From Nitrospira sp. (lineage in GTDB: Bacteria; Nitrospirota; Nitrospiria; Nitrospirales; Nitrospiraceae), in assembly GCA_020697375.1 (NCBI GenBank), contig JAJFBJ010000046.1, positions 1 to 39,689 on the forward strand: 39,689 nucleotides of DNA, given 5' to 3'. A program made the translations under genes and the position numbers. The notes under the pieces are model-generated. The model did not search any database. It saw only the letters and a program-made list of their open reading frames with translations, and was not told the origin of the DNA. This document shows, in pieces, positions 2,548 to 39,689 of this stretch. Within the stretch, counting starts at the first letter, position 1. Every line of letters begins with the position of its first letter.

Positions 2548-2577
2548 TTGAAAATGAATACCAAAATCTCCTATGAT
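2548..2577 (+). promoter_or_regulatory. Possible sigma70-type promoter before the polysaccharide block
   Basis: TTGAAA at 2548-2553 and TATGAT at 2572-2577 with an 18-base spacer form a reasonable vegetative-type promoter in AT-rich DNA directly upstream of the first glycosyltransferase. Transcription would start near 2584, which fits translation from ATG 2622 better than from the TTG at 2577. Prediction by eye only. Confidence 0.4.
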
Positions 2578-2621
2578 TGCAAACGGCGCTGTCTGCAAAT
2601 AACCCTCAAGAGCTCAATGAA

Positions 2622-5164: not shown

Positions 5165-5212
5165 AGAAAGAATGCATTGCATGAATTCCCGGCGTTAGTC
5201 AGGCTTCGGAAC

Positions 5213-8196: not shown

Positions 8197-8227
8197 ATTG
8201 AGCAGTGTTTGGCGATAGTGAACGGCC

Positions 8228-10626: not shown

Positions 10627-10675
10627 TCCATATCCGCTTTGCCCCGCTCAATTGCTGGCCGCCAGTTATTCCATA

Positions 10676-12745: not shown

Positions 12746-12931
12746 GCGACCGGTAAACCGCTTCGGACTTCCGGGAGGTATTATCCTAACCGCTGACGAG
12801 TTGGCTTTTAACATAATAAGTATCTTCGCGTATCCATCTTGGTCTCCCGATTCACAGGTCATGCGTCTACCTATTCAGCAGTATGCCAAGGCGGATTCTG
12901 CGGTGAACGGTGAGCATCGCGCGATGAAAAA

Positions 12932-16306: not shown

Positions 16307-16323
16307 ATACTATTCTCCTTTGA

Positions 16324-16347
16324 CGCCCTGAGCGCCCCGTCAGGACG
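16324..16347 (-). promoter_or_regulatory. Hairpin between the exporter ATPase and the trimodular gene
   Basis: On the minus-strand transcript, CGTCCTGA pairs with TCAGGGCG (8 bp, one G-U) around an 8-base GC loop. It lies just upstream of the AAAGGAG ribosome site of the 1124-residue gene. There is no U-run, so it is not a standard intrinsic terminator. It could tune expression of the distal gene or be chance. Confidence 0.3.
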
Positions 16348-16383
16348 CCGAGTCGGGGCAGAAATCTATAACGGTCGATGTTG

Positions 16384-17628: not shown

Positions 17629-17645
17629 GGTTTTGGGTACTTTTG

Positions 17646-18455
17646 CTAAATTGTGTCCACGACGTCCGGTTCGAGGCGTCTGTACGTCCAGTAACCGAGC
17701 CCGCAAATCAGCGCACTCAGCATTCCGGTCTGCGCAATAGACGACCACACAGGACCCGCTCCTTCGAACAAGACTGCACGATACCCATTGATGAGAGGAA
17801 CCATGGGGTTCAGGGCCAGCAGGGCAAGATATTCATTCGCCACAATTGGTCGGTAAAATATTGGCGTGAGGAAAAACAGGAGAGAGAGACAGATACCCAC
17901 CAGTTGAGCAATGTCGCGATAGAAAACGTTCCACGTGGCCACCATGAAACTGAGTCCCACGGTGAGAGCTGCCTGAATAGCCAACAGAGACAGAAGTGCG
18001 ATCGGATTCCATGCTACAAACCGTCCATACCAGCCGAGTATCAGATAGAGCAGCGGTAGACTAATGAGGAACGTGATAAGGTGCGAAAGCGTGTTGACTA
18101 ACACCAAAACCGCCGACGGAAAGGCAGGTCGCCGGACTAAGTCGCGGTGATTAAAAAACAGGGTGCCTGCTGAGGACAATGAATTGGTAAACCAGCTCCA
18201 TGGCAAAAGGGCGCTAAAGACGAAGGCCGGATAATCTTCGATGTCCACCCGTATGATGCTACCGAATGTAAACGATAGGACGCCGAGTTGAGCCAGTGGA
18301 ACGATCAGCGACCATAGGACCCCTAATGCAGAGCCCGTGTGTCTCAAATAAAAATCGCGTTTGACTAGATGCCATATCAAATTGCAAAAGTGTGTCATCC
18401 GGTAAGGCCATTCTGCTTCCGCATTTATCGACGATGTTAAATTATTCATAGCCAT
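17646..18455 (-). CDS. ABC-2 polysaccharide export permease
   Basis: Membrane component of the exporter, TagG/Wzm type, 269 aa from ATG 18455. Typical landmarks are LIWHLVKRDFYLRHTGSALG and VLWSLIVPLAQLGVLSFTFG at the N-terminal amphipathic helix and first segment, then FSALLPWSWFTNSLSSAG. ALNPMVPLINGYRAVLFEG near the end is characteristic of this family. About six membrane segments. Alternatives are ATG 18449 and a longer frame from 18536; no start has a strong ribosome site, so the N-terminus is uncertain by a few residues. It is followed after 17 bases by its ATPase, so the two are one operon read leftwards. Confidence 0.87.
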   Translation of the reverse strand: MAMNNLTSSINAEAEWPYRMTHFCNLIWHLVKRDFYLRHTGSALGVLWSLIVPLAQLGVLSFTFGSIIRVDIEDYPAFVFSALLPWSWFTNSLSSAGTLFFNHRDLVRRPAFPSAVLVLVNTLSHLITFLISLPLLYLILGWYGRFVAWNPIALLSLLAIQAALTVGLSFMVATWNVFYRDIAQLVGICLSLLFFLTPIFYRPIVANEYLALLALNPMVPLINGYRAVLFEGAGPVWSSIAQTGMLSALICGLGYWTYRRLEPDVVDTI

Positions 18456-19252
18456 GCAAGGATTACCGGCAGGTCTGCAGTACGCGTGAATTACAACGGT
18501 AATCCCGGCTTTGATCGAAGAATGCGACCTGCTCAACGATAGAAAAGTCTTGAATTATCATTTTGATGAACAAAACCAATGACGATAGTCAACGAGCAGA
18601 GGACACCCAAGCAATCCATAGGCAAGCACACCATAGGAAGCACTTCCGGCAGACTGTCGTGGTACAGCAATCACAACAGAGAGACGTGGCAAAAGAAAAT
18701 AACCGGCTAAGAACACTCCAGTTCTTGATTTGCGAGGCAATCTGATTGGTCTGTCAAATACCCTCGAGCCAAGGTGTAACGGCGGCCATTCTTCACAAGA
18801 AGGTCGCCTACCACACCATGCTTTGCTGTCTCTTACCCCGTTGCATGGCTTTTGCTTCGCCGGCCGTTCCCGAGCCGAAGGTACGTGAAAAAACTTGTGG
18901 CGGAAAGTGGCACAGGTAAAGACAATTGCAAAGTCTCTGTCCCCGTCAAGAAAAGCGACCGACGGATTACCGTCAATTATCAGGATTTAGGTATCCGTAG
19001 AGCCACAAGCCCATAACTTTTTCGTAGCCGCACAAAGGTGAACTCAGCCACCAAAGAGATACGCCAAATCCAGAAGCCGCCAGGAGCCGAGCCTTCCTTA
19101 AAGCTAGTGAAAGAGCAGGTAGTACACTCAGCGCGAGCACTTCATCGTTACTTCAGTTCTCTGCTTGCCAGTTTAGTGCGACAAAACGATCTGGAGCTCA
19201 ATACGGCGGATCACGATTGAGCTGTGGCTGAAGTCGCACAATAACAGGATCG
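18456..19252. other. Intergenic stretch without supported gene
   Basis: About 800 bases between the exporter operon and the GH16 gene. Both strands hold only frames of 60-70 codons without ribosome sites or family resemblance. A minus-strand frame near 18558-18740 contains a hydrophobic VLAYGLLGCPLLV stretch that could be debris of a membrane protein, but I cannot support it. The promoter of the leftward exporter operon should lie in the first part. Confidence 0.4.
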
Positions 19253-20089
19253 TCACCTTCTACTAGAATGTGATGATTCTAACGGAACGTCGCCCCAGCG
19301 GTACACGCGCACATAGTCCACCAGCATGGATGCCGGAAGAAACGTGGAAGCGTCCGGTGGCCCGCCATACCCGTCGAGCGCTAGGTCGAGAACCAGCATA
19401 AATGGTTCACTCGGAACGTGTTCTGTTGTTCGATGCCGCTCCACTCCGTCGATATACCAGACGAGGGTGTCGGGTGCCCATGCCAGCCCGTACACATGGA
19501 AGTCTTCTGTAAAATCGGAACCCTCATAAGCGACCTCTGCGAAGTGATCTCCGCTAAAGTCTACCTGTTCTGGATGCTCGCGGACTATTCCGTCCTCCGA
19601 CCAATGCACGGTCATGTAGACATTCGTAGGCTCCGATCCTTTAATCTCTGCAATGTCGATCTCAGGTGGCCATTCGTCGGACTGGGGCCATAGCCACCAT
19701 GCGGGATGCACACCGCGTCCTGCGGGCATTTTTATGCGGGCCTCAAAATAACCATACTGCTGATGAAATATATCTCGGGTGTCAATCTCCCCGCCCGAAT
19801 GTTTCATGGAGAGATAAGGAGTAGGTCGGAGGTCGATCTTCAGGTAGCCATTCTCAACTGACACCATATTGGGGTTGTGCGAGCTCAGAACGCCCGGATA
19901 AAAAATATTACGTGAAATGACATTCCACTTCGAGGAGTCTACATTACGCCCATCAAACTCGTCCCCGAAGGTCAGCACGGCTCGGGTTAAATCCGGCGAG
20001 GAAGAAGGAATATAGAAAAATCCGCAGCCAGCGAAACTGAGATAGAGAACTAAAAAAATTAAAGAGGATTGCCTGATCAGTGCCTGCAT
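19253..20089 (-). CDS. Glycoside hydrolase family 16 lipoprotein
   Basis: Endo-acting beta-glucanase/galactanase-type hydrolase, 278 aa. A hydrophobic leader ends in LSFAGC with Cys22, consistent with a lipoprotein signal, so it should sit in the periplasm or outer membrane. The GH16 beta-sandwich begins at FGDEFDGRNVDSSKWNV. The catalytic signature is EIDIAE at 143-148, with nucleophile Glu143 and acid/base Glu148. YGYFEARIKMPAGRGVHPAW precedes it and MLVLDLALDGYGG follows, both normal for the family. ATG 20089 has AAGGTG just upstream. Such hydrolases in export loci trim or release the chain; the substrate cannot be named. It is read toward the exporter but 800 bases away, so operon membership is doubtful. 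Confidence 0.9.
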   Translation of the reverse strand: MQALIRQSSLIFLVLYLSFAGCGFFYIPSSSPDLTRAVLTFGDEFDGRNVDSSKWNVISRNIFYPGVLSSHNPNMVSVENGYLKIDLRPTPYLSMKHSGGEIDTRDIFHQQYGYFEARIKMPAGRGVHPAWWLWPQSDEWPPEIDIAEIKGSEPTNVYMTVHWSEDGIVREHPEQVDFSGDHFAEVAYEGSDFTEDFHVYGLAWAPDTLVWYIDGVERHRTTEHVPSEPFMLVLDLALDGYGGPPDASTFLPASMLVDYVRVYRWGDVPLESSHSSRR

Positions 20090-26870: not shown

Positions 26871-27071
26871 ATGCGTTATTGCTTTGATCCGCGTTATTTC
26901 ATACCCCGCCTTGTCATGCTGGCCTGTCTGTGCGGACTACTGACGCTTCAAGGTTGTTATGAATGGAGAAGCCCTGCTGGCGGCAGCCAATCCACCTTCT
27001 CTGGCGAGCGCCCTATCCATACGGGCGATGTCACGCTTCCACCGGGATATAATCCCGCCGACGCGTGTTGA
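26871..27071 (+). CDS. Small predicted lipoprotein, 66 aa
   Basis: ATG 26871 has GGAG seven bases upstream. The N-terminus is a signal of lipoprotein type: RLVMLACLCGLLTLQGC with Cys29 in the lipobox. The short mature part (YEWRSPAGGSQSTFSGERPI, then TLPPGYNPADAC) has no recognisable domain and ends in Cys. It overlaps the broken TonB-dependent receptor by seven bases, so it was probably part of the same transport operon. Function unknown. Confidence 0.6.
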   Translation: MRYCFDPRYFIPRLVMLACLCGLLTLQGCYEWRSPAGGSQSTFSGERPIHTGDVTLPPGYNPADAC

Positions 27072-29111
27072 GCCGTCTGCTCCTGCTCACTTCGCTTTCC
27101 TTCTTCGTTCCAATCGACTGGGCTCGCGCGTCAGAACAACCCCTGTCTCCGGACCAGTCCGAAGAAGCCGTCCCGCTTAAAACACCTGAGATCCTGGTGA
27201 CGGCCACCCGTGTTCCCCTCCCGGGCGGCACATTGCCTTCTCCGGCGACCGTATTGACTAGGGAGTTTATTCAAAGAACCCCATATAGGAGCGGATACCA
27301 GGTCGACGATCTATTACGGTCCGTCCCTGACGTGCGGCCGAGCAATTTAAGCAGCCGCTACAACCATCCGACGGCACAGGCGGTATCGCTGGGGGACTCG
27401 GCAGCCGGCGTGTCCTGGTATTGCTCGATGGAGTGCCGCTCAATGATGGCTTTGGCGGATGGATCAATTGGGGGCTGGCACCCGATACCTTACGGCAAAT
27501 TGAAGTCATCCCCGGCGGAAATTCAAGCCTGTACGGCACCTGGGCCATGGGAGGCGTCATTCATCTCCTCACTGAACAAGCCGATCAGGGAATCGCAGCG
27601 CGAGCAGACAGCCGTGCGGGAAATCTACAGTAATGCCGTCACCGCAAGATATGGAACGACCAATACAGGTTTCCTGCTGTCCGCAAGATGGTTCCACAGC
27701 AACGGCTACATAACCGTGCCCAGTTATCAATGGGGCGCATCGATCGGTTCGACGATTCGCGGGATGGAATTTCTTCGGATCTTTTACGACAAGACTGGCT
27801 CGGATGTTCGATTCAAGCTGTCCGGCGGGCTCTTCCATGAGGACCGCACGTTCGGTACAGCCTTAAGTGTGGCGACCCGCACCATCGGCACGATTTCAGC
27901 CGCGCTGCAGGGCGAGACGACTCGAGGCAATCACTGGAAGACGACCGCCTTCGCACACTTGCAGACCTTCCGTAGTTTCACCTCTCAAATCACGCCCTCT
28001 CCCCTGCTCAGGGCCGGAGAATTGCGTGATCGAATTCAAATCATTCCCTCGAATGATTTCGGCGGGCTCAGCCAATACACGATGCGGCTGGATGACCATA
28101 CTCGTCTGGTGATCGACGCACATGCGCGGGCGATCCTCGCCCGATCAGAGGATCACATGTTCTCGCCGTCCGGACCGGCAGGACGTACCCTCGCCAAAGG
28201 AAAACAAGTGGGAGGCGGCGTCTTTTGCGGAATGGATCTCCATCACGTTCGAACGGCTGACGGTCATTCCGCGTCTCCGTGTGGACTGGTGGAACAATTT
28301 CGACGCCCGCCTCGAAGCCGCGAACGGCGCCCTGACCATTCCGCGCGACAATGTCCAAACCGCGCTCAATCCCAAAGTCGGCATGCTGTATCGCTTCCAT
28401 GACCGCATCAGAGTCGGCGCATCGTTCTATCAAGCGTTTCGCGCTCCCACCTTGAACGAATTGTATCGTGGCTTCGGCTTCGCCGGGTTTTCATTTCTTC
28501 CCAATGAAAACCTTAATCCCGAACGCCTGATCGGTGGCGATGCCAAGCTCGAAATAGACCTCATCCCAAACGGGCGGATCACGTTGAGGATGGTGGCTCC
28601 CCATGATGAGATCAAAGACCAAATCCTCTTCGTCTCTCAAGATCGCGCGACGGCGCGCCGGCAAAATGCTGGCCGCACGACAACGGACGGCGGCGATGTC
28701 ACCATCACGGCCAAGTCGAGTGATTGGTTGAGGCTGAATCTGAGGTATGCCTATACCCATTCGATTATTACCAGCTTTCCTCAAGATAGGAGCCGCGAAG
28801 GCAAGGCGGTTCCAAACGTGTCGCCGCATCAAGTCATCGCCGGCGTGACCATTGGTAAGGTCACCGGCTTACAGGTGACGCTTATGGCCCGCTACCTGTC
28901 ACGCCAATTCGCAGATGATCTCAACAGTCATCCTAGTTGCGGATTTCGTGGTCCTCGACGCATCGATTCAACATCAACTGACCAAACATTGGCGCGTGAT
29001 GCTGGACGCGGAAAATTTAACGGATCGTCAGTACATTGCCACACAAACTGGTCCTATCAAGACGCTTGGCGTCCCCACGCTGATCCTCCCGGCCTTCGCG
29101 CAGAATACTAG
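27065..29111 (+). pseudogene. TonB-dependent outer-membrane receptor, broken by about five frameshifts
   Basis: Outer-membrane uptake receptor for a siderophore, cobalamin or similar ligand, now decayed. The N-terminal signal is MLSRLLLLTSLSFFVPIDWA, then the TonB-box region EILVTATRVP and plug-domain start. At about 27390 one base is lost and the plug motif continues in another frame: RRVLVLLDGVPLNDGFGGWI, then IEVIPGGNSSLYGTWAMGGV. It shifts back near 27630 (NAVTARYGTTNTGFLLSARW), again near 28223 (ERLTVIPRLRVDWWNNFDAR, VGASFYQAFRAPTLNELYRG), near 28940 (LDAENLTDRQYIATQTGPI) and near 29085, ending LRAEY with the terminal aromatic. Corrected length would be about 680 aa. Confidence 0.85.
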
Positions 29112-29703
29112 CCCGCAATACGACGGCTGCTCATACTCTTCTGCACATTTCCTTCTCTCCCCTTCCTCTCACCTTCTCTTGTAGGAGCGTTGCTCTCTCC
29201 AAGGCACTCTGAAATGCAGTCGGAACAATTTCTCTTATATCGGCGCAATAGGACACGACCATGGCTTGCTTTCATGAGTCATCCACAAATGGACGCATAG
29301 ACCCCTCGACCCACAGCCGATCTTTGTTATGCCGCGCCCTGTATGACTGAAACCATCTCCACTTCGGTCAATAGAACTCCCCGATGTTCTCATTGTGTCA
29401 TTCCGCGACAGCTCAGTCAGGGCGTCATCCATCATAAAACCACTCGACCTGATTTCTTCCGGGGTCAGGAACTTTTTATAATTCCCATAGGCCCCGGCAC
29501 TTCCGGACAGGCTGTCCCAGGAATGACAGTCTGTCCGACTCCTGTTATGCATCGCCGATTCGCCAAACCAGGCATCCTGCATAATCTCTTCATGTAGCGC
29601 TTACTTCTCTCTCGATGTGCCTAGGACGGGATGCGATCGCACACGGTCTACGTTTTGCACAGACGAGCGCCCGTGGAACAGATCACTATTTATGAGGTCC
29701 GTT
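29112..29703. other. Intergenic stretch without supported gene
   Basis: About 590 bases between the broken receptor and the DUF6335 gene. Short frames on both strands lack ribosome sites and family features. It should contain the promoter for the downstream stress-type genes, but no pair of promoter elements is convincing. Confidence 0.4.
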
Positions 29704-30195
29704 ATGAAAACGAAACGACCTAAGGAAGTCATCGGTGCCGATCAGCAAGTTCGTGAATACTACGAAAATCAGCCGCCGTCCGAGAGCGAAGCGTTTCCTG
29801 AACCGCTGGAATCCGTCTCCACCACAGCGCAGCTTGCGGGAAAACTCGATGTACCAGATCAACGCACAGCAAGACTGAGCGGCGGGGACCCCGATGTCTC
29901 GTCTCAAGGCATCGATGCAGGCACTGAAACCCCAGGGGGATCGAACCCCACGCCGGACCAAGATCTGGTCGATGAGATCGGTAAGGCGGCCGGTGTGACC
30001 TATCAGGACGATGAACCACTGAAGTTCGGCGAGAAAGTCGCCGCGCGCGACGAGGATCGCTGGGAACTCAATCCGGCTTCTTCCGATGATTACCTGGAAC
30101 GGCAGGCATCAGAGAACCAAACAAGTTCTTCATCCCACGATAGAGCCGGAAATTCGGCAGCCACGTCTTCGACCCGACAGAAGCGCTCCGGTTGA
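29704..30195 (+). CDS. DUF6335-family protein
   Basis: Hydrophilic, acidic protein of 163 aa from ATG 29704, with GAGGT five bases upstream. The N-terminus KRPKEVIGADQQVREYYENQ is followed by a disordered Ser/Pro/Gly-rich part. The conserved block NPTPDQDLVDEIGKAAGVTY and then DEPLKFGEKVAARDEDRWEL is what I recognise as DUF6335. The tail is low-complexity Ser/Thr. Members occur in cyanobacteria and Nitrospirota without a known function. It precedes the stress-protein gene by 115 bases and may share its regulation. Confidence 0.78.
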   Translation: MKTKRPKEVIGADQQVREYYENQPPSESEAFPEPLESVSTTAQLAGKLDVPDQRTARLSGGDPDVSSQGIDAGTETPGGSNPTPDQDLVDEIGKAAGVTYQDDEPLKFGEKVAARDEDRWELNPASSDDYLERQASENQTSSSSHDRAGNSAATSSTRQKRSG

Positions 30196-30310: not shown

Positions 30311-30868
30311 ATGACCAGCGCGACATCGGTTCATGCATCGTCCGGCTCGGCCGGTCACACAGTCATCGGTCTGCTCCCGGATCTTAACGCGGTCAAAGAG
30401 GCGCTTCAAACACTGCGATCACACGGGGTCTCCGACGAACAGATCGGGCTGGCGATGCGGCAAGCGGACAACGAAGTCTCTTCCATGGAAGAGGCTCCGT
30501 CCCCGACGGGGCAGGACGCGACGAGCGGAGCCGTCGGCGGAGGTCTCATCGGCGGGCTTGCCGGTCTTCTTGCGGCAACCGGCATCGTGGCCATTCCCGG
30601 ACTGGCGCCGTTGTTGGCCGGCGGAGCTCTCGTTTCATTACTCGGTGCGACAGGAGCCTCGATTGTCGCCGGATCGGGCGTAGGGGCCGTAGCCGGTGGA
30701 TTGGTCGGCGCCTTGATCAGCATCAACGTCCCTGAAACCGCCGCCCGGCAATACGATGAGGCCGTTCGCCAAGGCCGCATACTCATTACGGTCAAAACGG
30801 ACGGGAATGTGGCGCCGATTCAGGAACTCCTCGCACGCCATGGGGCCGATACGGCGGTCCGGTCATGA
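30311..30868 (+). CDS. YflT/DUF1269-like stress protein with glycine-zipper membrane segment
   Basis: Protein of 185 aa. The N-terminal HTVIGLLPDLNAVKEALQTL and HGVSDEQIGLAMRQAD are a ferredoxin-like alpha-beta domain as in general-stress proteins of the YflT or DUF1269 type. A long hydrophobic Gly/Ala-rich part follows (GAVGGGLIGGLAGLLAATGI, GASIVAGSGVGAVAGGLVGA), a glycine-zipper membrane hairpin. The C-terminal half repeats the alpha-beta fold: EAVRQGRILITVKTDG. The stop overlaps the next start as ATGA at 30865, so it is translationally coupled to the glycosyltransferase operon. I infer a stress-responsive membrane factor tied to that operon. Confidence 0.78.
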   Translation: MTSATSVHASSGSAGHTVIGLLPDLNAVKEALQTLRSHGVSDEQIGLAMRQADNEVSSMEEAPSPTGQDATSGAVGGGLIGGLAGLLAATGIVAIPGLAPLLAGGALVSLLGATGASIVAGSGVGAVAGGLVGALISINVPETAARQYDEAVRQGRILITVKTDGNVAPIQELLARHGADTAVRS

Positions 30869-31992
30869 TGCCTCAGGCGACCGACAACTCACAGCTGCTG
30901 TCACGCTTACGCCATGCGCCTCGCACCATCGCCGTCTTGCGGGCGCTCCAACTGGGCGATCTTCTCTGTTCCGTGCCGGCCTTGCGAGCGCTTCGCCAAG
31001 CCCTCCCTCATTCCCACATTGTACTGATCGGCCTTCCCTGGGCAGCCGGATTCGTATCCCGCTTTTCTCGTTATCTAGACGAACACATCGAATTCCCAGG
31101 ATTCCCTGGGCTTCCTGAGCGGCCTGTCGCGGTGGAAATGGTGCCTCGCTTCCTCGCCGCGATGCAACAGCGACGTTTCGACATGGTGCTCCAGATGCAT
31201 GGCAGCGGCCATTACAGCAACCAGGTCGCGGTTCTGCTCGGTGGAGACAAAACCGCAGGGTTTTTCCAGCCGCCGGAATTTTGTCCGGACGACGAGCTCT
31301 TCATGCCCTATCCGGACGACTTGCCCGAGGTCCAGCGCCATCTTCAATTGATCCGGCGCCTCGGGCTGCCCGTCCACGATGAGGAGTTGGAGTTTCCCGT
31401 CACAGAGGAAGACGAAGCGGCATTCTCCGGACTGAGCAGCGTACAAGCGCTCCAACCCGGCAGCTTCATCTGTGTGCATCCCGGGGGACGGGGACAGAAC
31501 CGCCGCTGGTCTCCTGAGCAGTTCGCAATCGTCGCAGACCGGCTGGCCTGTGAAGGGTATGAAATCGTAGTCACCGGGACAGCCGAGGAAGAATCGATCG
31601 TCCGGACCATGGCGAACCACATGCGATTCGAACCTATCGTGCTGGCTGGACAGACGAATCTGGGAACCATGGCCCTGCTGTTACGGCGCGCCAGACTGCT
31701 GCTGGCCAATGATACCGGAGTGTCCCATATGGCCGCGGCGCTGAAAGTCCCTAGCGTCATTTGCTGCATCGGCTCGGATCCCCTGCGTTGGAGTCCGTCC
31801 GACCATGAGCGACACAGGGTACTGGCCGGCTCGATGATCACGATCGAGTCGGTATGCGCTGAAATTCAGCACGTATTGAATGCCGGTCACTGCGCGCCGG
31901 TCATGGCGATGGGGCGCGACCCTGTTCCGTCGTTGCTGGGAACGCCGGCGTCGCTTTCGACCTGGCATCACCAGTATCTGACAGGCATGTAA
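30865..31992 (+). CDS. Family 9 glycosyltransferase (heptosyltransferase type)
   Basis: GT-B transferase of 375 aa related to ADP-heptose:LPS heptosyltransferases. N-terminal: RTIAVLRALQLGDLLCSVPA, the acceptor-domain strand with the conserved Asp. C-terminal: CVHPGGRGQNRRWSPEQFA for phosphate contact, then ANDTGVSHMAAALKVPSVIC, the nucleotide-sugar-binding motif of GT9. It overlaps the preceding stress gene by four bases and is followed after eight bases by a GT4 gene. Two GT9 enzymes in one operon with a heptose-type phosphatase suggest heptose transfer, but other nucleotide sugars are possible. Confidence 0.88.
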   Translation: MMPQATDNSQLLSRLRHAPRTIAVLRALQLGDLLCSVPALRALRQALPHSHIVLIGLPWAAGFVSRFSRYLDEHIEFPGFPGLPERPVAVEMVPRFLAAMQQRRFDMVLQMHGSGHYSNQVAVLLGGDKTAGFFQPPEFCPDDELFMPYPDDLPEVQRHLQLIRRLGLPVHDEELEFPVTEEDEAAFSGLSSVQALQPGSFICVHPGGRGQNRRWSPEQFAIVADRLACEGYEIVVTGTAEEESIVRTMANHMRFEPIVLAGQTNLGTMALLLRRARLLLANDTGVSHMAAALKVPSVICCIGSDPLRWSPSDHERHRVLAGSMITIESVCAEIQHVLNAGHCAPVMAMGRDPVPSLLGTPASLSTWHHQYLTGM

Positions 31993-32000
31993 GGACGACA

Positions 32001-33032
32001 ATGGTTGCAATGGGCGCGCGCATGGATCGGTTGCGTATCTTCACCTGGCATGTTCACGGTAACTATCTCTATTACCTGACTCAGACTCCGCATGAGTTTT
32101 ATCTGCCGGTCGGAAGGCCCTCCCACGGGTATGCCGGCCGTGCCGCCGGCTTTCCCTGGTCCGATCGGGTGCACGATATCCACGTCGACCACATCCGGGA
32201 CAGCGAGTTCGATTGTGTGCTCTTCCAATCCCGCCAGCACTATTTGAGCGATCAATACGATGTGCTGTCGGACCGGCAGCGCCGGCTTCCCGCCATTTTT
32301 CTGGAACATGATCCGCCACAGGAGCATCCCACGAACACGCGGCATGTGGTCGATGATCCATCTATGCTCCTGGTGCACGTCACGCCCTTCAATGCCCTTA
32401 TGTGGGACAGCAATCGCACACCGGTACGGATCATCGAACATGGCGTCGTCGTGCCGCAAGGCTTGTCCTATCAAGGCGATCTCGCGAAAGGTCTGGTGAT
32501 CATCAACGGGTTGAGAAAGCGTGGCCGAAGATTGGGCGCCGACATCTTCGAGCAGGCGCGAAGGAGGATTCCGCTCGACCTGATCGGAATGCAATCCGAA
32601 GAACTGGGCGGGGTGGGAGAAATCTCTCATGATGACCTTCCCCGTTTCATGTTGCGCTATCGGTTCCTGTTCAATCCCATCCGCTATACCAGCCTCGGTC
32701 TGGCCGTATGCGAATCGATGGCTTTAGGGCTGCCTGTCGTGGGCCTGGCCACCACCGAGATGAGCACAGCCGTGGAAAACGGCGTCTCCGGTTATGTCCA
32801 TACCAGCATTGAATCCTTGATAGAACGGATGCGCCACCTGCTGGATCATCCGGATGAAGCGCAACGGTTGAGCGACGGCGCGCGACAGGCGGGCCGCGCC
32901 CGATTCGACATCGCGCGCTTTGCGAATGATTGGGACCGCGTGTTTTCGGAAGCAGTCCGGCAGGGCCGGGATGTTTCTTCCAACCTCGTACGCAACGGCG
33001 AACCTCTTATTGCGGGACGGAGTCACCCATGA
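32001..33032 (+). CDS. Family 4 glycosyltransferase
   Basis: GT-B transferase of 343 aa. N-terminal: MDRLRIFTWHVHGNYLYYLT, the sugar-acceptor domain start. A central FQSRQHYLSDQYDVLSDRQR and PAIFLEHDPPQEHPTNTRHV lie in the cleft region. C-terminal: FNPIRYTSLGLAVCESMALG followed by LPVVGLATTEMSTAVENGVS and GYVHTS, the ExxxxxxE donor-site region of GT4. ATG 32001 has AAGGA five bases upstream; ATG 32010 or 32022 are possible. It is coupled to the next gene by an ATGA overlap at 33029. Donor unknown. Confidence 0.85.
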   Translation: MVAMGARMDRLRIFTWHVHGNYLYYLTQTPHEFYLPVGRPSHGYAGRAAGFPWSDRVHDIHVDHIRDSEFDCVLFQSRQHYLSDQYDVLSDRQRRLPAIFLEHDPPQEHPTNTRHVVDDPSMLLVHVTPFNALMWDSNRTPVRIIEHGVVVPQGLSYQGDLAKGLVIINGLRKRGRRLGADIFEQARRRIPLDLIGMQSEELGGVGEISHDDLPRFMLRYRFLFNPIRYTSLGLAVCESMALGLPVVGLATTEMSTAVENGVSGYVHTSIESLIERMRHLLDHPDEAQRLSDGARQAGRARFDIARFANDWDRVFSEAVRQGRDVSSNLVRNGEPLIAGRSHP

Positions 33033-34972
33033 CCAGACAAGTGGCCCTGATCAGTGAGCATGCGTCGCCGCTCAGCGTCTTGGGCGGCGTGGATTGCGGC
33101 GGACAAAACCTCTATGTGGGCCAAGTGGCAAAATCCCTTGCGTCTTTGGGCTATGACGTCGACGTGTTTACTCGCCGGGACAGCGAAGTGCTTCCCGAGA
33201 CGGCGGAATGGGTCAACGGCGTCCGCATCATCCATGTGCCTGCCGGACCGCCCTCCTTCGTGCGTAAGGAAGATCTCCTTCCCTACATGAAGGAATTCAC
33301 CGAATACATGCTGAAGTTTTGCCGATGCCAGCGCAAGGCCTATGACCTCGTCCATGCCAACTTCTGGATGTCCGGTCTGGTGGCGGCGGAGTTGAAGAAG
33401 CAACTAGGCACGCCGTTCGTCATCACGTTTCACGCCTTGGGTCGGGTGCGCCGCCAGTTTCAGCGGCAGGCCGACGAGTTTCCCGATGCGCGGTTCGAGA
33501 TCGAAGACCGCATCGTCGCCGAAGCGGACCACATCATCGCCGAGGCGCCGCAAGACGAAGAAGATCTGATTCGGCTCTACAACGCCGACCCTTCCAACAT
33601 CACCATCATCCCTTGCGGGTTCGATTCCACTGAACTATGGCCGATCAGCAAGACCCTGGCGAAAATTTCGCTGGGGCTTCCGCCGGAAGAGCGTGTCATC
33701 TTGCATTTAGGCCGGATGGTTCCCCGCAAAGGCACGGAAACCGTCGTGCAGGCATTCGGACGCCTGGTGCACAAGCACGGAATTGCCGCCCGGCTCCTGA
33801 TCGTCGGTGGAGAATCAGACGACCCGGACCCGGCTGCCACTCCGGAAATTGCGCGACTTCAACAGATTGCCCGTGATGAAGGCGTCGCCGACGGCGTCAC
33901 ATTCGTGGGCCGGCGCGGTCGCGATACGTTGAAGTTTTATTACAGCGCGGCGGATATCTTCGTGACCACCCCCTGGTACGAGCCCTTCGGCATTACACCG
34001 GTCGAAGCCATGGCCTGCGGTACCCCGGTGGTTGGATCCAATGTCGGCGGAATCAAGTTCACCGTGCGCGATGGAGAGACCGGATACCTGGTTTTTCCGA
34101 AGGATCCGGACTGTCTGGCAGAAAAGATCGCGCACCTCTATGCGAACCCCAAACTGCTGACTCTATTCGGGCGTCAAGCCATCCAACGGGTCAACGATCT
34201 CTTTACCTGGAACAAAATTGCCAAGGGATTGAGCGCGCTCTACGAACAGGTGGTGAGCGCCAAGCAGCCGGCCGACATACATAGGGAGGATCACCTGGCC
34301 CTGGTGGACGCGGGGTTTGACGCGGCCATGGAGTCCATGCAGGACCAGAAGCGTCGTCTCCGTTCCGTGATTCTGGATGCGGCTCATGTGCTCCGCGAAA
34401 CCTTCGTGCGCGGAGGAAAAGTGTTGATCTGCGCCTCGCCGGGCCGAACGGACGCGGCTGAGCGATTGGCCATGCATTTGCGCTGTCTGACTGTCTCGGG
34501 GAATCGCCCCGGACTTCCCGCCCTTTGTCTCGATGACCATTCATCCACAGCCGACCCGTCCCTGCTGGAAGACAGCCTTGTCCGACAGGTCCACCTGTTC
34601 GGGCGGCCCGAGGATGTGCTCATCGGTATCGGATTCGAAGGAGACTCGTCCGCGCTCCGGGGGGCCTTCGAAGCGGCAGGCGAACGCGGGTTGCACTCCA
34701 TCGCAATCCTCGGGACGGAAGCCACGGATATCCGCCGGCTGGTCCATCTCACCGTAACCCTTTCACCGCCGGGCCGGGAGGCGGTGGAGTCTCTGTACCA
34801 CATCATGCTCCAGGTCTGGATCGCCGTGCTCCAACAACAGCTGGCATTGGCAGATCAAGAGCGGATGCCGGCGACGACCTTGCATTCCATGTGGGGGCTG
34901 CCACGCACGGTCAAGGTATCGAATTCGCGTCGTCGTATGCCGGTTCAACGGACAAAGGAGGTTATCAAATGA
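33029..34972 (+). CDS. GT4 glycosyltransferase fused to a GmhA-like SIS domain
   Basis: 647 aa from ATG 33029. Residues 1-415 form a GT4 domain of sucrose-phosphate-synthase/MshA type: SVLGGVDCGGQNLYVGQVAK near the N-terminus, LHLGRMVPRKGTETVVQAFG and TPWYEPFGITPVEAMACGTP for the donor site. Residues about 434-620 form a sugar-isomerase (SIS) domain like phosphoheptose isomerase GmhA, with RPGLPALCLDDHSS, GRPEDVLIGIGFEGDSSALR and ESLYHIMLQVW. The normally invariant G-N-G-G-S loop reads ASPGRTD (near 467-475), and the GmhA catalytic Glu of the following helix is replaced in LAMHLR. A phosphosugar-binding rather than isomerising role is inferred. Coupled at both ends by ATGA-type overlaps. Confidence 0.85.
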   Translation: MTRQVALISEHASPLSVLGGVDCGGQNLYVGQVAKSLASLGYDVDVFTRRDSEVLPETAEWVNGVRIIHVPAGPPSFVRKEDLLPYMKEFTEYMLKFCRCQRKAYDLVHANFWMSGLVAAELKKQLGTPFVITFHALGRVRRQFQRQADEFPDARFEIEDRIVAEADHIIAEAPQDEEDLIRLYNADPSNITIIPCGFDSTELWPISKTLAKISLGLPPEERVILHLGRMVPRKGTETVVQAFGRLVHKHGIAARLLIVGGESDDPDPAATPEIARLQQIARDEGVADGVTFVGRRGRDTLKFYYSAADIFVTTPWYEPFGITPVEAMACGTPVVGSNVGGIKFTVRDGETGYLVFPKDPDCLAEKIAHLYANPKLLTLFGRQAIQRVNDLFTWNKIAKGLSALYEQVVSAKQPADIHREDHLALVDAGFDAAMESMQDQKRRLRSVILDAAHVLRETFVRGGKVLICASPGRTDAAERLAMHLRCLTVSGNRPGLPALCLDDHSSTADPSLLEDSLVRQVHLFGRPEDVLIGIGFEGDSSALRGAFEAAGERGLHSIAILGTEATDIRRLVHLTVTLSPPGREAVESLYHIMLQVWIAVLQQQLALADQERMPATTLHSMWGLPRTVKVSNSRRRMPVQRTKEVIK

Positions 34973-35700
34973 AGGACGTATCCCTTTCGAAGCAAGTCGC
35001 GTTCATTACCGGAGGCGCACAAGGATTGGGCGAAGCCTTGTCCCGCGTGCTGGGAGAAGAAGGCGCCACCGTGGTGATCGGCGATATCCGGCGCGACAAT
35101 GCCGACGCCCTGGTGACCAAGCTTAAACATGACGGGATCGAAGCGATGGCTGTCTCTCTCGACGTGGCGGATGAGCAGCAGGCTCAAGCAGGCGTGGATA
35201 GTATTCAAAAAGCCTATGGTGGCATCGATATTTTGGTCAACAACGCCGCGGCCGACAAAACGGTGTCTATCGAAGAACTCTCCTTTGCGGAATGGGACAG
35301 GATTCTGGGCACGAATTTGCGAGGCCCGTTCGTCATGTCCAAGATCGTCTTGCCCTTGATGAGGCAAAAGCGGAGCGGCCACATCATCAATATCGCCTCG
35401 ACGGCTGCGAAGCGGGCCTGGGCCAACGCCTCCGCCTACCACGCGAGCAAGTGGGGAGTGCTGGGATTCAGCCACGCGCTCCATGTGGAAGCCCGCGCGG
35501 TCGGCGTGAAAGTCACCGCGATCGTGGCCGGCGGCATGCGGACGCCGTTTCTCTTGGACCGGTTTCCGGATATCGACATCGGGACATTGCAAGACCCGAG
35601 GAATGTCGCGGAAACGATCCGCTGTCTCCTCCACCTGCCTGTGGACAGCGTCGTGCCGGAAATCACCATCATTCCTATGCGTGAAACCTCGTGGCCATGA
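34969..35700 (+). CDS. Short-chain dehydrogenase/reductase (SDR)
   Basis: Classical NAD(P)-dependent SDR of 243 aa. The cofactor loop TGGAQGLG is at 14-21. NNAAA is at 91-95. Catalytic residues Asn116, Ser144 (NIASTAAK), Tyr157 and Lys161 (YHASK) are all present. AAAGGAGG precedes the ATG at 34969, which overlaps the previous stop. In this operon it probably oxidises, reduces or epimerises a sugar or sugar nucleotide. An unrelated lipid substrate cannot be excluded. It shares an ATGA overlap with the phosphatase gene. Confidence 0.87.
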   Translation: MKDVSLSKQVAFITGGAQGLGEALSRVLGEEGATVVIGDIRRDNADALVTKLKHDGIEAMAVSLDVADEQQAQAGVDSIQKAYGGIDILVNNAAADKTVSIEELSFAEWDRILGTNLRGPFVMSKIVLPLMRQKRSGHIINIASTAAKRAWANASAYHASKWGVLGFSHALHVEARAVGVKVTAIVAGGMRTPFLLDRFPDIDIGTLQDPRNVAETIRCLLHLPVDSVVPEITIIPMRETSWP

Positions 35701-36305
35701 ATTGCAAAGCCGTCTTCGTCGACAAGGATGGAACGCTGATCGAAAACCGCCCCTTCGACTGGGGCGGCGAAGATATGCGGATGCTGCCGGGCTCGGTCGA
35801 AGGACTCCGGTTGCTACACCTCGCCGGCTATGCCTTGATCGTGGTGACGAACCAGGGCGGGATCGCGCACGGCTGGTTCACCGAGGAGGCCATGACGAAT
35901 GTGGAAATCACGTTGCGCATTCGCCTTGCTGCCGCCGGTATTCCATTGGCGGGATTCTACTATTGCCCGCACCATCCTCAGGGGTCCGTGCCTCGCTACA
36001 CAACACATTGCGCATGCCGCAAACCCAAGCCCGGGCTGCTGATGCAGGCCGCGCGCGAGGTTCATGTGGATTTGGAGCAATCCTGGATGGTGGGAGATAT
36101 TTTACATGATGTCGAAGCAGGACGATGGGCGGGATGCCAGACGGTTCTGTTGACCAACGGCAACGAAACCGAATGGGAGATGTCCGCCATGCGATGGCCG
36201 GACCTGCTCGCGGACGACGTGCTGGAGGCTGCGCGTGTGATCGTGGCGACGGACCAACGACAGGCCAGCGGATCGCGCAAGCCATTCGAACAGGAGGAGG
36301 AATGA
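35697..36305 (+). CDS. HAD phosphatase of the D,D-heptose 1,7-bisphosphate phosphatase (GmhB) type
   Basis: HAD-superfamily phosphatase, 202 aa from ATG 35697. Motif I is VFVDKDGTLIEN with nucleophile Asp9 and Asp11. VVTNQGG near 49-55 is motif II. The zinc-binding loop CPHHP (Cys90, His92) pairs with CACRKPKPG (Cys105, Cys107), the hallmark of GmhB and histidinol-phosphatase relatives. MVGDILHDVEAG provides motif IV Asp134/Asp138. GmhB removes the C7 phosphate from heptose 1,7-bisphosphate on the way to ADP- or GDP-heptose. No kinase/nucleotidyltransferase (HldE/HddA type) is in the window. Overlaps neighbours by four bases at both ends. Confidence 0.85.
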   Translation: MNCKAVFVDKDGTLIENRPFDWGGEDMRMLPGSVEGLRLLHLAGYALIVVTNQGGIAHGWFTEEAMTNVEITLRIRLAAAGIPLAGFYYCPHHPQGSVPRYTTHCACRKPKPGLLMQAAREVHVDLEQSWMVGDILHDVEAGRWAGCQTVLLTNGNETEWEMSAMRWPDLLADDVLEAARVIVATDQRQASGSRKPFEQEEE

Positions 36306-37453
36306 GCGAGGCGCATGCGCAACCCTTCTCACCCCGGCTCGAAGCATGGCGGCAAGCGCGGCGTATTCTCTGCGTGAGGCTTGACCAGCTGGGTGATGTC
36401 ATCATGACCAGTCCCGCCCTGCGAGCCGTCAAGGACTCGATGCCCGGACGCACCATCACGCTGTTGACGTCCCCCGGCGGAGCTGAGGCCGCCAGGCTGA
36501 TGCCATTCGTCGATGACATTCTCGTATACGAGGCCCCATGGATGAAGGGCTGCGCCTTTCGGGATAACGCGTCGGCGGACCGGCAGTTCATCGATCAATT
36601 GCGCGCCTCGGCATTCGACGCCGCCATCCTCTTCACCGTGTATAGCCAAAGTTCCCTGCCGGCTGCTCTCATGTGTTACCTGGCGGACATTCCATTGCGG
36701 CTCGCCCACTGCCGGGAGAACCCCTACCAGATGCTGACGGACTGGGTCCGTGAACCTGAACCCGACGCCGCAATCCGGCATGAAGTCCGGCGGCAGCTGG
36801 ATCTGGTCAGCGTCATGGGAGCTCACAGCCTGGATCAGCATTTATCCATGACGATTCCTCTACCCTCGCGTGAACTGATCGGTCATTTGCTTCGCCGATT
36901 ATTGGGTGCGGTGGAAAGACCCTGGGTCGTCATCCACCCCGGAGCGTCGGCAGCGTCCCGCCGCTATCCTCCCGAGAGTTTCGCCATGGTCGCGCGGCAG
37001 CTCATCCAGGATTTCGGCTGGACGGTAATTTTTACCGGCACACAGCCGGAGCGCAGATTGATTGAGACGATCCGCGAGCAGACAGCCGCGCCGACCCATT
37101 CGCTGGCCGGTGAACTCGACCTCGGAAGCCTTGCCGCCTTGCTCGAACGGGCGCCGCTCGTTATCTCCAACAATACGGGCACGGTTCATGTCGCCGCCGC
37201 AGTCGGTACCCCGGTAGTCGATCTCTATGCCCTCACGAATCCTCAACACATGCCCTGGCTCGTTCCCCACCGCGTGCTGTTTCACGACGTGCCTTGCAAA
37301 TTTTGTTACAAGAGCATTTGTCCTGAAGGTCATCAGGATTGCCTGCGGCTCGTGACGCCGGAAACCGTAGTGAACGCGGCTACGGAGTTGCTGGCCGTTC
37401 AACCTCTCGCGAACAGGCAAGGAGAACGTCATCTTGTATACGCTCGGGATTAA
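36302..37453 (+). CDS. Second family 9 glycosyltransferase (heptosyltransferase type)
   Basis: GT-B transferase of 383 aa. RRILCVRLDQLGDVIMTSPA opens the acceptor domain; VRLDQLGD holds the GT9 Asp. VVIHPGASAASRRYPPESFA and ISNNTGTVHVAAAVGTPVVD are the donor-side motifs. The C-terminal CKFCYKSICPEGHQDCL has the Cys cluster seen in many heptosyltransferases. ATG 36302 follows GGAGGAGG and overlaps the phosphatase stop. The longer frame from 36125 overlaps the phosphatase and is rejected. It differs clearly from the GT9 at 30865, so the two probably add different residues. Confidence 0.88.
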   Translation: MSEAHAQPFSPRLEAWRQARRILCVRLDQLGDVIMTSPALRAVKDSMPGRTITLLTSPGGAEAARLMPFVDDILVYEAPWMKGCAFRDNASADRQFIDQLRASAFDAAILFTVYSQSSLPAALMCYLADIPLRLAHCRENPYQMLTDWVREPEPDAAIRHEVRRQLDLVSVMGAHSLDQHLSMTIPLPSRELIGHLLRRLLGAVERPWVVIHPGASAASRRYPPESFAMVARQLIQDFGWTVIFTGTQPERRLIETIREQTAAPTHSLAGELDLGSLAALLERAPLVISNNTGTVHVAAAVGTPVVDLYALTNPQHMPWLVPHRVLFHDVPCKFCYKSICPEGHQDCLRLVTPETVVNAATELLAVQPLANRQGERHLVYARD

Positions 37454-39158
37454 CGCGGCCTTTCATGATTCCGCTGCCTGTCTCGTCAAGGATGGATCGG
37501 TCGTCGCGGCAGCCGAAGAAGAGCGCTTCACCCGCATCAAACATGGCAAGCGGCCCATCCCGTTCAGCACCTACGAGTTGCCGTTCCATGCCGTCGATTT
37601 TTGCCTGGCCGCCGCTGGTCTTTCGCTTCTCGACATCGAACACATTGCCTATTCCTACGACCCTTACCTGATGCTGGGCCGGCACGCCGGCGATGCGACC
37701 ATGACGCTTCCTCTCGAACCGAGCGGACAACCGACTCCATCGGAATGGGAAACTGCCTGGGATCCTCTGTTTCTCTCCTACATCGTCAACGCGCCACGGC
37801 ATCTTGCCGGCGGAGCGCCTCACCATCTGAGCCGCCGGTTCGAGGGCGTCACGCCGCAAGGACCATTCACTTGGCATTTCGTATCCCACCATTTGGCCCA
37901 TGCAGCGAGCGCCTTCTACGCCTCTCCGTTTGAAACAGCGGCCGTGCTGACGTTGGACGGCCGTGGGGAACAGGCGACTACGACCTACCATCTTGGAGAA
38001 GCGCAAAAGCTACAGCACCTGGGTCAGGTCAATATGCCCCACTCCCTGGGACTCCTGTATGAGGAAGTCACGACCTATCTGGGATTCCTTCATTCCTCGG
38101 ATGAATACAAAGTCATGGCGCTGGCCTCTTACGGGAAGCCCCGCTATGTGGAAGACTTCCGGCAGATCGTCCGGCTTCAAGAGGATGGCCGATATGAAAT
38201 TCATGCGACAAAGCTCGAAGAGCGTTTTGGATCGCGTCGCCGGCGCGGGGAATCACTCGATGCCAGGCATTACGATATTGCCCGTTCCCTCCAGCAGGTG
38301 TTGGAGGAAACCGTCGTAACCATCACCGCCTGGCTTCACCGGGAGACGGCTCAGCCTAATCTCTGTTTAGCGGGCGGCGTCGCGCTGAACTGCGTCATGA
38401 ATGCCCGCGTGCGGGACCAGGGACCGTTCAGCTCGGTGTGGGTTCAACCGGCGGCTGGAGACGCCGGCACTGCGCTCGGAGCCGCCCTCTTGGTTGACCT
38501 CGAACAAAGGAACGCGACCGAATCGAAGCCGTACCATATGGACCATGCATTCCTCGGCCCTTCGTATGAAGACGACGAGATCGAGGCTTGCTTGCGACGC
38601 GCCAAACTCCGCTATCGCCGCCTTACCGACATCGCACAAGAGACCGCGGACCTGCTGGACCAAGACCGCATCATTGGCTGGTTTCAGGGAGCGATGGAAT
38701 TCGGCCCGCGCGCGCTCGGCGCCCGTTCCATTCTCGCTTCCCCGGTCAGTCCGGCGATGCAGGATCGCTTGAACGAGATCAAGGACCGGGAGGATTTCAG
38801 ACCGGTGGCGCCCGTCGTCCTCGAGGAAGCCGCGGCTCAGTGGTTCGAAGGCGCGATCTGTTCTCCCTTCATGCTGTTTACCTATCAAGTCGTACCGCAA
38901 CAGGCGCACCGCATCCCGGCCGTCCGCCACGTCGATGGATCTGCCAGGGTTCAAACGATCAACCGGTTGCAGCACCCCCTGTACTACGACTTGATCAAGG
39001 CCTTCGAGCGCCGGAGTGGAATTCCTGTCCTGGTGAATACCTCCTTCAATACACGCGGTGAACCGGTGGTTTGCACACCGCGCGATGCCATCGAAGCCTA
39101 TAGTAGTTCGCCGCTTGACGCATTGGTCATCGGATCGTTCCTGCTCAGGAAATCATGA
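37434..39158 (+). CDS. O-carbamoyltransferase of the NodU/TobZ family
   Basis: 574 aa. Transfers a carbamoyl group from carbamoyl phosphate, through carbamoyl-AMP, to a sugar hydroxyl. The N-terminal Kae1-like domain has YTLGINAAFHDSAACLVKDG, FVSHHLAHAASAFYASPFE and VLTLDGRGEQATTTYHLGE, and GGVALNCVMNARV further on. The C-terminal domain has MEFGPRALGARSILASP and NTSFNTRGEPVVCTPRDA, as in NodU/CmcH/TobZ. TTG 37434 with AGGAG nine bases upstream is the only start that keeps the family's N-terminus; it overlaps the GT9 by 20 bases. The gene implies that the operon's product is O-carbamoylated. Confidence 0.92.
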   Translation: MYTLGINAAFHDSAACLVKDGSVVAAAEEERFTRIKHGKRPIPFSTYELPFHAVDFCLAAAGLSLLDIEHIAYSYDPYLMLGRHAGDATMTLPLEPSGQPTPSEWETAWDPLFLSYIVNAPRHLAGGAPHHLSRRFEGVTPQGPFTWHFVSHHLAHAASAFYASPFETAAVLTLDGRGEQATTTYHLGEAQKLQHLGQVNMPHSLGLLYEEVTTYLGFLHSSDEYKVMALASYGKPRYVEDFRQIVRLQEDGRYEIHATKLEERFGSRRRRGESLDARHYDIARSLQQVLEETVVTITAWLHRETAQPNLCLAGGVALNCVMNARVRDQGPFSSVWVQPAAGDAGTALGAALLVDLEQRNATESKPYHMDHAFLGPSYEDDEIEACLRRAKLRYRRLTDIAQETADLLDQDRIIGWFQGAMEFGPRALGARSILASPVSPAMQDRLNEIKDREDFRPVAPVVLEEAAAQWFEGAICSPFMLFTYQVVPQQAHRIPAVRHVDGSARVQTINRLQHPLYYDLIKAFERRSGIPVLVNTSFNTRGEPVVCTPRDAIEAYSSSPLDALVIGSFLLRKS

Positions 39159-39168
39159 GCGCGTGATC

Positions 39169-39689
39169 ATGGAATCGTCGCAGCCGTCCTCTCTCCCACA
39201 TGTGAATGTTCCTCCTGTCGCATGTCGCGATCGGGATCACCGTGGCCCGGAGGAACAAACCAGGGGTAGCATCTGCATCTCCGTGGTGATCCCGACCTAC
39301 AAACGGCCGGCTCTCCTGCGCCGTTGTCTGTTGGCGCTCTGCGCGCAGACCATGAATCCGCGCCGTTTTGAAATCATCGTCGTGGACGACGCGCCGACGG
39401 ACGATACGAAAAAAACGGTCGCTTGCATCGCTGCCGCAGTTCCATGGCCGGCGATCAGCTATATCGCGGCGGTCGGACCACGCGGCCCGGCGGCGGCCCG
39501 CAACCGGGGATGGCGCGCGGCACGAGCCGACCTCATCGCCTTTACCGATGATGACTGTGTGCCCCTTCGCAATTGGCTCAGCGAAGGATGGAACATTTTC
39601 CGCATGCCCGGCATCTCCGGCGCCTGGGGTGACATCATTGTTCCACTCGGCGTCAGCCCCACGGACCATGAACGCAATACCAAGGGGCT
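39169..39689 (+). CDS. Family 2 glycosyltransferase, C-terminus cut by window edge
   Basis: Starts at ATG 39169, ten bases after the carbamoyltransferase stop, and runs open to the window end (173 codons). A hydrophilic leader of about 35 residues precedes the GT-A fold: CISVVIPTYKRPALLRRCLL, FEIIVVDDAPTDD, then GPRGPAAARNRGWRAARADL and LIAFTDDDCVPLRNWL with the DDD metal site. Likely the third transferase class of the operon. Its C-terminal part and any downstream genes are outside the window. Confidence 0.87.
   Translation, partial: MESSQPSSLPHVNVPPVACRDRDHRGPEEQTRGSICISVVIPTYKRPALLRRCLLALCAQTMNPRRFEIIVVDDAPTDDTKKTVACIAAAVPWPAISYIAAVGPRGPAAARNRGWRAARADLIAFTDDDCVPLRNWLSEGWNIFRMPGISGAWGDIIVPLGVSPTDHERNTKG

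Follow-up and report, generated by a model that had tools for sequence, protein, structure and literature searches.

We describe a run of nine genes at the end of a Nitrospira sp. contig (GenBank assembly GCA_020697375.1, contig JAJFBJ010000046.1; the whole stretch analysed, 39,689 nucleotides, is hereinafter the window) which, with a probability that we put at about 0.6, represents the Nitrospira form of a widespread cluster predicted to build a heptose-containing oligosaccharide or glycoconjugate, with the supply of the precursor off-loaded. The run encodes a small stress protein, four glycosyltransferases of families GT9 and GT4 (GT9a, GT4a, a fusion of GT4 with a SIS domain, and GT9b), a short-chain dehydrogenase (SDR), a GmhB-like phosphatase, an O-carbamoyltransferase and a GT2 glycosyltransferase (Table 1), and the cluster to which it belongs is apparently undescribed. 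A preliminary description of the window had proposed that these genes constitute one stress-linked pathway leading to a carbamoylated, heptose-type glycan.

Conservation of the cluster across bacterial phyla

An alignment of 24 GT4-SIS proteins was used as the query to scan contigs of species genomes, yielding 262 confirmed relatives, of which the best 80 loci, a sample that leans to close relatives, were retained. According to the record titles, these loci come from 10 phyla: Pseudomonadota, Chloroflexota, Acidobacteriota, Bacillota (one metagenome-assembled genome), Methylomirabilota, Cyanobacteriota, Actinomycetota, Nitrospirota, Bacteroidota and Planctomycetota. Gene content was counted in the 55 loci with at least 4 kb of upstream and 5.5 kb of downstream flank, and gene order was established by tblastn, all-against-all clustering and profile searches, which all agree. 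The common order among the relatives is GT9a, GT4a, GT4-SIS, SDR, GmhB, HldE, GT9b, with GT9a present in 49 loci, GT4a in 51, SDR in 44, GmhB in 50, HldE in 48 and GT9b in 51. The genes for GT4-SIS, GmhB and GT9b follow each other in this order on the same strand in 50 of the 55 loci, and HldE is located between GmhB and GT9b in 47. Gene order is therefore kept in other phyla far beyond chance, so that a cluster confined to this genome is ruled out and the proposed single pathway is supported. Such conservation over ten phyla implies that the product is of real use.

The HldE protein of the relatives, a bifunctional heptose kinase/adenylyltransferase, combines a PfkB kinase with a cytidylyltransferase-like (CTP_transf_like) domain. 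Taken together, the SIS domain, GmhB and HldE in the relatives point to the ADP-heptose route, and the heptose part of the earlier proposal thus becomes stronger than it could be from the window alone, where the HldE gene is absent.

Several further features vary among the loci. Another type of GT2 gene is present in 33 of the 55 loci, mostly cyanobacterial, and a PucR-type regulator with a GGDEF-like domain, a possible control gene, is encoded near the cluster in 23, again mostly in cyanobacteria (for example, positions 5156-6352 of L048). Four clusters (L034, L040, L044 and L063) end after the SDR gene; GmhB, HldE and GT9b were not found downstream of it although the contig continues.

Absence of HldE from the cluster and degenerate SIS domain in Nitrospira

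In all four Nitrospira loci (the window, L036 of N. moscoviensis, L042, and L100 of the Nitrospira genome G069), GmhB is directly followed by GT9b, with no HldE in the cluster. Of the genes that mark an ADP-heptose locus, neither HldE nor HldA with HldC was found in the cluster of the window, whose operon may run past its end, and GmhB was recognised by its motifs. N. moscoviensis encodes a cluster-type HldE approximately 0.5 Mb from the main cluster, followed by a cluster-type GT2, a radical SAM/SPASM protein and a GT9 (L099, 9464-14722), and in G069 the HldE function is represented only by separate homologues of the kinase and the adenylyltransferase.

The second half of the fusion protein (approximately residues 430-600) is recognisable in sequence as a GmhA-type SIS domain. 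Against the motif residues S, H, E, S, S, S, Q, H, the protein of the window has R, R, H, G, E, S, E, Q, with one residue kept, and at H, E, Q, H, which we take from GmhA to be the catalytic positions, it has R, H, E, Q. The corresponding eight residues are G, Y, S, S, D, C, E, H in N. moscoviensis and Q, L, R, G, D, S, E, H in G069. All four catalytic residues are kept in 68 of the 80 loci compared to none of the four Nitrospira loci; in separate protein searches, which were restricted to the 7,997-7,999 candidates with the most shared words, they are kept in 40 of the 120 GT4-SIS proteins listed. The domain is also degenerate in the acidobacterial loci L003, L007, L015 and L023, and is missing from L068 and L078. 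A functional isomerase in the window was rejected on the basis of the lost catalytic residues; the SIS half is probably not an isomerase, and the interpretation of the GT4-SIS fusion changes accordingly.

In a quick phylogenetic tree of the GT4 domain (44 sequences, with 17 of the 40 inner branches drawn open), the four Nitrospira sequences form one clade (100*) within a larger, poorly resolved group of sequences with intact, degenerate or missing SIS domains. Given this nested position, the SIS loss in Nitrospira looks derived. The tree omits 37 loci, all cyanobacterial except L061, as well as L003, L011, L035, L062, L065 and L074; L002 is labelled intact despite one lost residue, and the branch of L077 is absurd and untrustworthy.

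The gmhA model scores 72 bits with the fused domain in genome G001 and 63 bits in G069. Stand-alone GmhA-type genes located elsewhere in these and a third Nitrospira genome score 196 bits in G001, 199 bits in G002 and 206 bits in G069, all below the curated cut-off of 209.

Proposed pathway

Under the scheme that we favour, the ancestral SIS domain would convert sedoheptulose 7-phosphate to heptose 7-phosphate, and the kinase of HldE, GmhB and the adenylyltransferase of HldE would then act in turn to yield ADP-heptose, made by the cluster itself. Two or more GT9 enzymes would transfer heptose, the two GT4 enzymes would add other sugars, and the SDR would modify an intermediate; an optional module consisting of the carbamoyltransferase and GT2, sometimes with a radical SAM/SPASM protein, would attach one more sugar as well as an O-carbamoyl group. 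In the lineage of the window, HldE would have moved out of the cluster and the SIS domain of the fusion would have decayed, with ADP-heptose probably drawn from the general pathway of the cell and the assembly enzymes staying together. We infer the substrates, the order of the steps, the existence and nature of a single product, the placement of the carbamoyl group on heptose, the export and the role in stress. If correct, this scheme suggests that heptose glycans occur outside lipopolysaccharide (LPS), in cyanobacteria and Chloroflexota, and the natural series of variants (SIS intact, decayed or lost; HldE in or out) could help show which steps are essential.

The individual enzymes of the window compare with curated families as follows. 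GT9b exceeds the cut-off of the WaaF-type model and GT9a falls under every heptosyltransferase cut-off listed. The GmhB-like protein scores 148 bits with PRK08942 (cut-off 178) and 134 bits with TIGR00213 (cut-off 149.6), both below the threshold; its best PDB match is D,D-heptose 1,7-bisphosphate phosphatase (5e-35), and the motifs DKDGT, CPHHP and CxCRKP are intact in the alignment, where motif I is gapped in 2 of the 69 sequences and the zinc motif letters are missing from a few.

Several observations weigh against the favoured scheme. The only enzyme in the window to pass a heptose-specific curated cut-off is GT9b, the GmhB-like protein and GT9a falling short. No role could be assigned to the SDR, which reached no NCBIfam cut-off among the 25 families listed of 220. 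The full order with HldE is broken in 8 of the 55 loci (L006, L034, L036, L040, L044, L063, L070 and L071), and in two of these, L070 and L071, HldE is not in the cluster and the SIS domain is intact, which means that the two losses need not go together. Each of three Nitrospira genomes encodes a second, better-scoring GmhB, and retention of the cluster copy is thus not explained by off-loading alone; this copy may have a role other than precursor supply. Finally, the cluster was found in just 2 of the 79 genomes of the genus of N. moscoviensis (at E <= 1e-60, scoring no more than 15 candidates in each genome) and is accordingly accessory in that genus.

Carbamoyltransferase and tail modules

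The carbamoyltransferase of the window is a full-length protein that scores above the gathering thresholds of both its Pfam domains, keeps the His motif HHLAHAASAFYASP and has decarbamoylnovobiocin carbamoyltransferase, GdmN and TobZ as PDB matches. Carbamoylation, as originally predicted, is supported by these features of the NodU/TobZ-type enzyme, which would take the carbamoyl group from carbamoyl phosphate. The enzyme is encoded in 15 of the 80 loci and the cluster-type GT2 in 12, with a radical SAM/SPASM protein near the carbamoyltransferase in 5; the two tail genes, described at the outset as part of the set, are present in the window but prove to be an optional module. The His motif is seen in 15 of the 16 aligned carbamoyltransferase sequences, being broken in L016. 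Identity to the window enzyme by tblastn is 60-71% in 13 of the 15 loci, 51-57% in L016, where the gene is split, and 45% in L031; among plasmid-borne enzymes, those of 9 Burkholderiaceae plasmids are 62-66% identical to it and those of 8 further plasmid records 39-48%. In L016 (15854-18479), the carbamoyltransferase is spread over two frames, the second open reading frame (ORF) matches UDP-glucuronate-decarboxylase-like proteins, and a UDP-glucose dehydrogenase gene is adjacent. Homologues of the window GT2 in N. moscoviensis and G069 are 344-345 amino acids long, and methyltransferase, PIG-L deacetylase and GT2 genes come next after them.

Association with stress genes

The first gene of the run has no Pfam match at 1e-3. 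One homologue (P0245, 75% identity) contains PF11181, which we take to be the YflT-type stress protein domain, and another (P0307) is named general stress protein; the label of stress protein is a fair one on this sequence evidence. A profile of this gene found the gene itself in the window and a relative upstream of the Chloroflexota cluster L012 (2627-3439); searches of the clusters L036 and L100 found none. The cluster of G069 is adjoined by SDR and hemerythrin genes, and ORFs with a similar start lie downstream of the N. moscoviensis cluster.

A related arrangement is found on megaplasmids of five Burkholderiaceae strains, which encode a GT4 without SIS, a HAD-IIIA phosphatase, two GT9 enzymes, the carbamoyltransferase, GT2, GT4a and a UDP-glucuronate decarboxylase, with no annotated HldE; according to annotation, PIG-L and a second GT2 are present in four of the five regions. 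Hemerythrin, Mn-catalase, CsbD, BON or DUF892-type proteins are encoded nearby in four of the five regions (not in L120). Two ATP-binding cassette (ABC) proteins tested from these regions carry a receiver domain; beside one cluster (L118, 10810-13497), an ABC exporter has a C-terminal response-regulator receiver domain, an unusual fusion.

For other phyla, 80 of the 92 listed ORFs flanking the cluster in 12 loci with a carbamoyltransferase were scanned against Pfam, and no stress family was detected among the 25 families listed of 71. The proposed stress link is therefore limited to Nitrospira and four of the five Burkholderiaceae regions; as a general property of the cluster it is unsupported, with the L012 relative as an exception.

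Alternative interpretations

The cluster could instead decorate the LPS core, with the GT9 enzymes acting as core heptosyltransferases and the carbamoyltransferase modifying core heptose in the manner of WapO (PA5005), the putative NodU-type LPS heptose carbamoyltransferase of Pseudomonas (PMC8005017). The score of GT9b (148 bits against the WaaF-type TIGR02195 cut-off of 134.6) and the presence of other ADP-heptose genes in Nitrospira genomes are in line with this possibility, which we nevertheless consider unlikely given that the cluster is also present in many Chloroflexota and in cyanobacteria. These bacteria are largely monoderm or have a heptose-poor LPS. Furthermore, no family for 3-deoxy-D-manno-octulosonic acid (Kdo) or lipid A synthesis is among the families listed (25 of 71 for the flanks of loci with a carbamoyltransferase), and the stand-alone GmhA-type genes of Nitrospira are located elsewhere.

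The GT4 half of the fusion (residues 1-410) is nearest to MshA and sucrose-phosphate synthase in sequence, and to these and GlgM in fold; it scores 297 bits with the MshA model TIGR03449, under the cut-off of 462.5, and for the 647-residue model, the best 50 matches each of Foldseek and VIA are glycosyltransferases of GT4 type or related to it. Sucrose-phosphate synthase, MshA and GlgM act on phosphorylated acceptors. A bolder reading would have the fusion channel its substrate: the SIS domain would make heptose 7-phosphate, the sucrose-phosphate-synthase-like GT4 would glycosylate it directly and the GmhB-like HAD phosphatase would dephosphorylate the product, yielding a new class of heptose-cored oligosaccharides in about ten phyla including monoderms, with a carbamoylated branch and a role in stress in Nitrospira and Burkholderiaceae. 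This reading appears quite unlikely.

The same similarity also bears on a compact glycoside made by the synthase/phosphatase logic of sucrose and mycothiol, whereby GT4 would glycosylate a sugar phosphate, the GmhB-like HAD would remove the phosphate and the other transferases would decorate the product. The retention of GmhB where HldE and SIS are lost and the GH13-family genes found near two Nitrospira loci fit this pathway, which remains improbable, because HldE in most loci indicates ADP-heptose use and at least five transferases are many for a small solute. Of the four residues that we take to be the phosphate contacts of MshA, a list that was not confirmed in the open-access literature, K78 and R154 align with the invariant K80 and R155, in line with such a pathway, but the other two differ (F112 and A136).

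Least probable of all is a secreted, aminoglycoside-like carbamoylated oligosaccharide with radical SAM/SPASM and PIG-L tailoring: the antibiotic-type matches of the carbamoyltransferase, the radical SAM/SPASM and PIG-L genes noted above and the ABC exporters scoring above 700 bits in 4 of the 80 loci (L060, L072, L073 and L078) are compatible with it, but a cell-envelope glycan is a better match for the very wide range of phyla and the presence of at least two GT9 enzymes.

Organization of the genes in the window

The ORFs and the Pfam and NCBIfam profile matches agree on nine genes in the same direction, of the families originally assigned (Table 1), and close homologues of the proteins indicate Nitrospira.

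Table 1. Genes of the predicted heptose glycan cluster in the window
Gene product	Coordinates	Strand	Comments
YflT-like (PF11181-related) small stress protein	30311..30868	+	First gene of the run; homologues with PF11181
GT9 (GT9a), heptosyltransferase superfamily	30865..31992	+	PF01075, 90 bits; below heptosyltransferase equivalog cut-offs
GT4 (GT4a), retaining glycosyltransferase	32001..33032	+	PF00534/PF13692
GT4-SIS fusion	33029..34972	+	GT4, residues 1-410; GmhA-type SIS with degenerate active site, about 430-600
Classical short-chain dehydrogenase (SDR)	34969..35700	+	PF00106, 185 bits
GmhB-like HAD-IIIA phosphatase	35691..36305	+	Start GTG 35691 or ATG 35697; HAD and zinc motifs intact
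GT9 (GT9b), WaaF-like	36302..37453	+	TIGR02195, 148 bits (cut-off 134.6)
NodU/TobZ-type O-carbamoyltransferase	37434..39158	+	TTG start; PF02543 and PF16861
GT2 glycosyltransferase	39169..39689	+	PF00535; cut by the window end

Five junctions are four-base ATGA overlaps (at 30865, 33029, 34969, 35697 and 36302), the one at 35697 depending on an ATG start of the HAD gene at this position rather than GTG at 35691. GT9a and GT4a are separated by 8 bases (31993-32000), and the carbamoyltransferase and GT2 by 4 or 10 bases, depending on the GT2 start (GTG 39163 or ATG 39169). Thus, most junctions are overlaps of four bases or gaps no longer than ten, as initially reported, but GT9b (end 37453) and the carbamoyltransferase (start 37434) overlap by 20 bases, an arrangement that recurs in G069 (L100; GT9b end 14360, carbamoyltransferase start 14341). 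GT2 is the last gene, incomplete at the window end, and the operon may extend beyond it. A promoter scan detected 0 sites against 3.3 expected, RNA folding upstream gave no signal, and terminator-like sites (12 against 7.8 expected) were not used as evidence. The G+C content per kilobase is 0.585-0.618 from 30 kb onward compared to 0.48-0.58 upstream.

Immediately 5' of the cluster, a DUF6335 protein is encoded (29617-30195), a relative of which is also located upstream of the N. moscoviensis cluster. Further upstream, two ORFs (27065-28402 and 28122-29111), the first without a Pfam match, overlap in different frames; the pair looks like a single broken gene for an outer-membrane receptor. A separate, lower-GC region of polysaccharide/O-antigen type (2577-20089) encodes GT2, a flavin amine oxidase, Gfo/Idh/MocA, a Wzx-like flippase, a Wzt-like ABC protein, a GT4-GT2 fusion and GH16.

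Comparison with known systems

In the open-access full-text literature, to which subscription papers do not belong, we found no description of the cluster, nor any close homologous cluster with a known product; an unrelated product, which the preliminary description named as evidence against it, was thus not encountered there. In the accessible parts of four papers (PMC8305402, PMC3966863, PMC3759415 and PMC7364216), the carbamoyltransferases are HypF, PyrB, ArcB or ArgF, besides WapO in PMC8005017, and the corresponding part of PMC6127331 mentions none. As far as PMC8005017 describes it, WapO, the nearest precedent and one that also speaks for the favoured scheme, resembles the cluster enzyme in being a carbamoyltransferase proposed to act on heptose and encoded in a locus with glycosyltransferases, and differs in that this locus is an LPS core locus.

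The closest general counterpart is the ADP-heptose pathway (GmhA, HldE, GmhB, HldD) with WaaC/WaaF, with which the cluster shares the SIS, HldE, GmhB and GT9 families, a set that is complete in most relatives. Unlike in that pathway, the GmhA-type domain is fused to GT4, and a classical SDR is encoded, with no HldD identified in the cluster; the window form additionally lacks HldE, and its SIS domain looks dead. The GT4 half of the fusion resembles MshA and sucrose-phosphate synthase in both fold and sequence, whereas the C-terminal SIS domain and the score under the MshA cut-off set it apart. TobZ, decarbamoylnovobiocin carbamoyltransferase, GdmN and NodU, which modify antibiotics or Nod factors, share both Pfam domains and the His motif with the cluster carbamoyltransferase; the cluster relatives differ from this group in their identity to the window enzyme, which is 60-71% for most of them compared to 39-48% for the eight other plasmid-borne enzymes.

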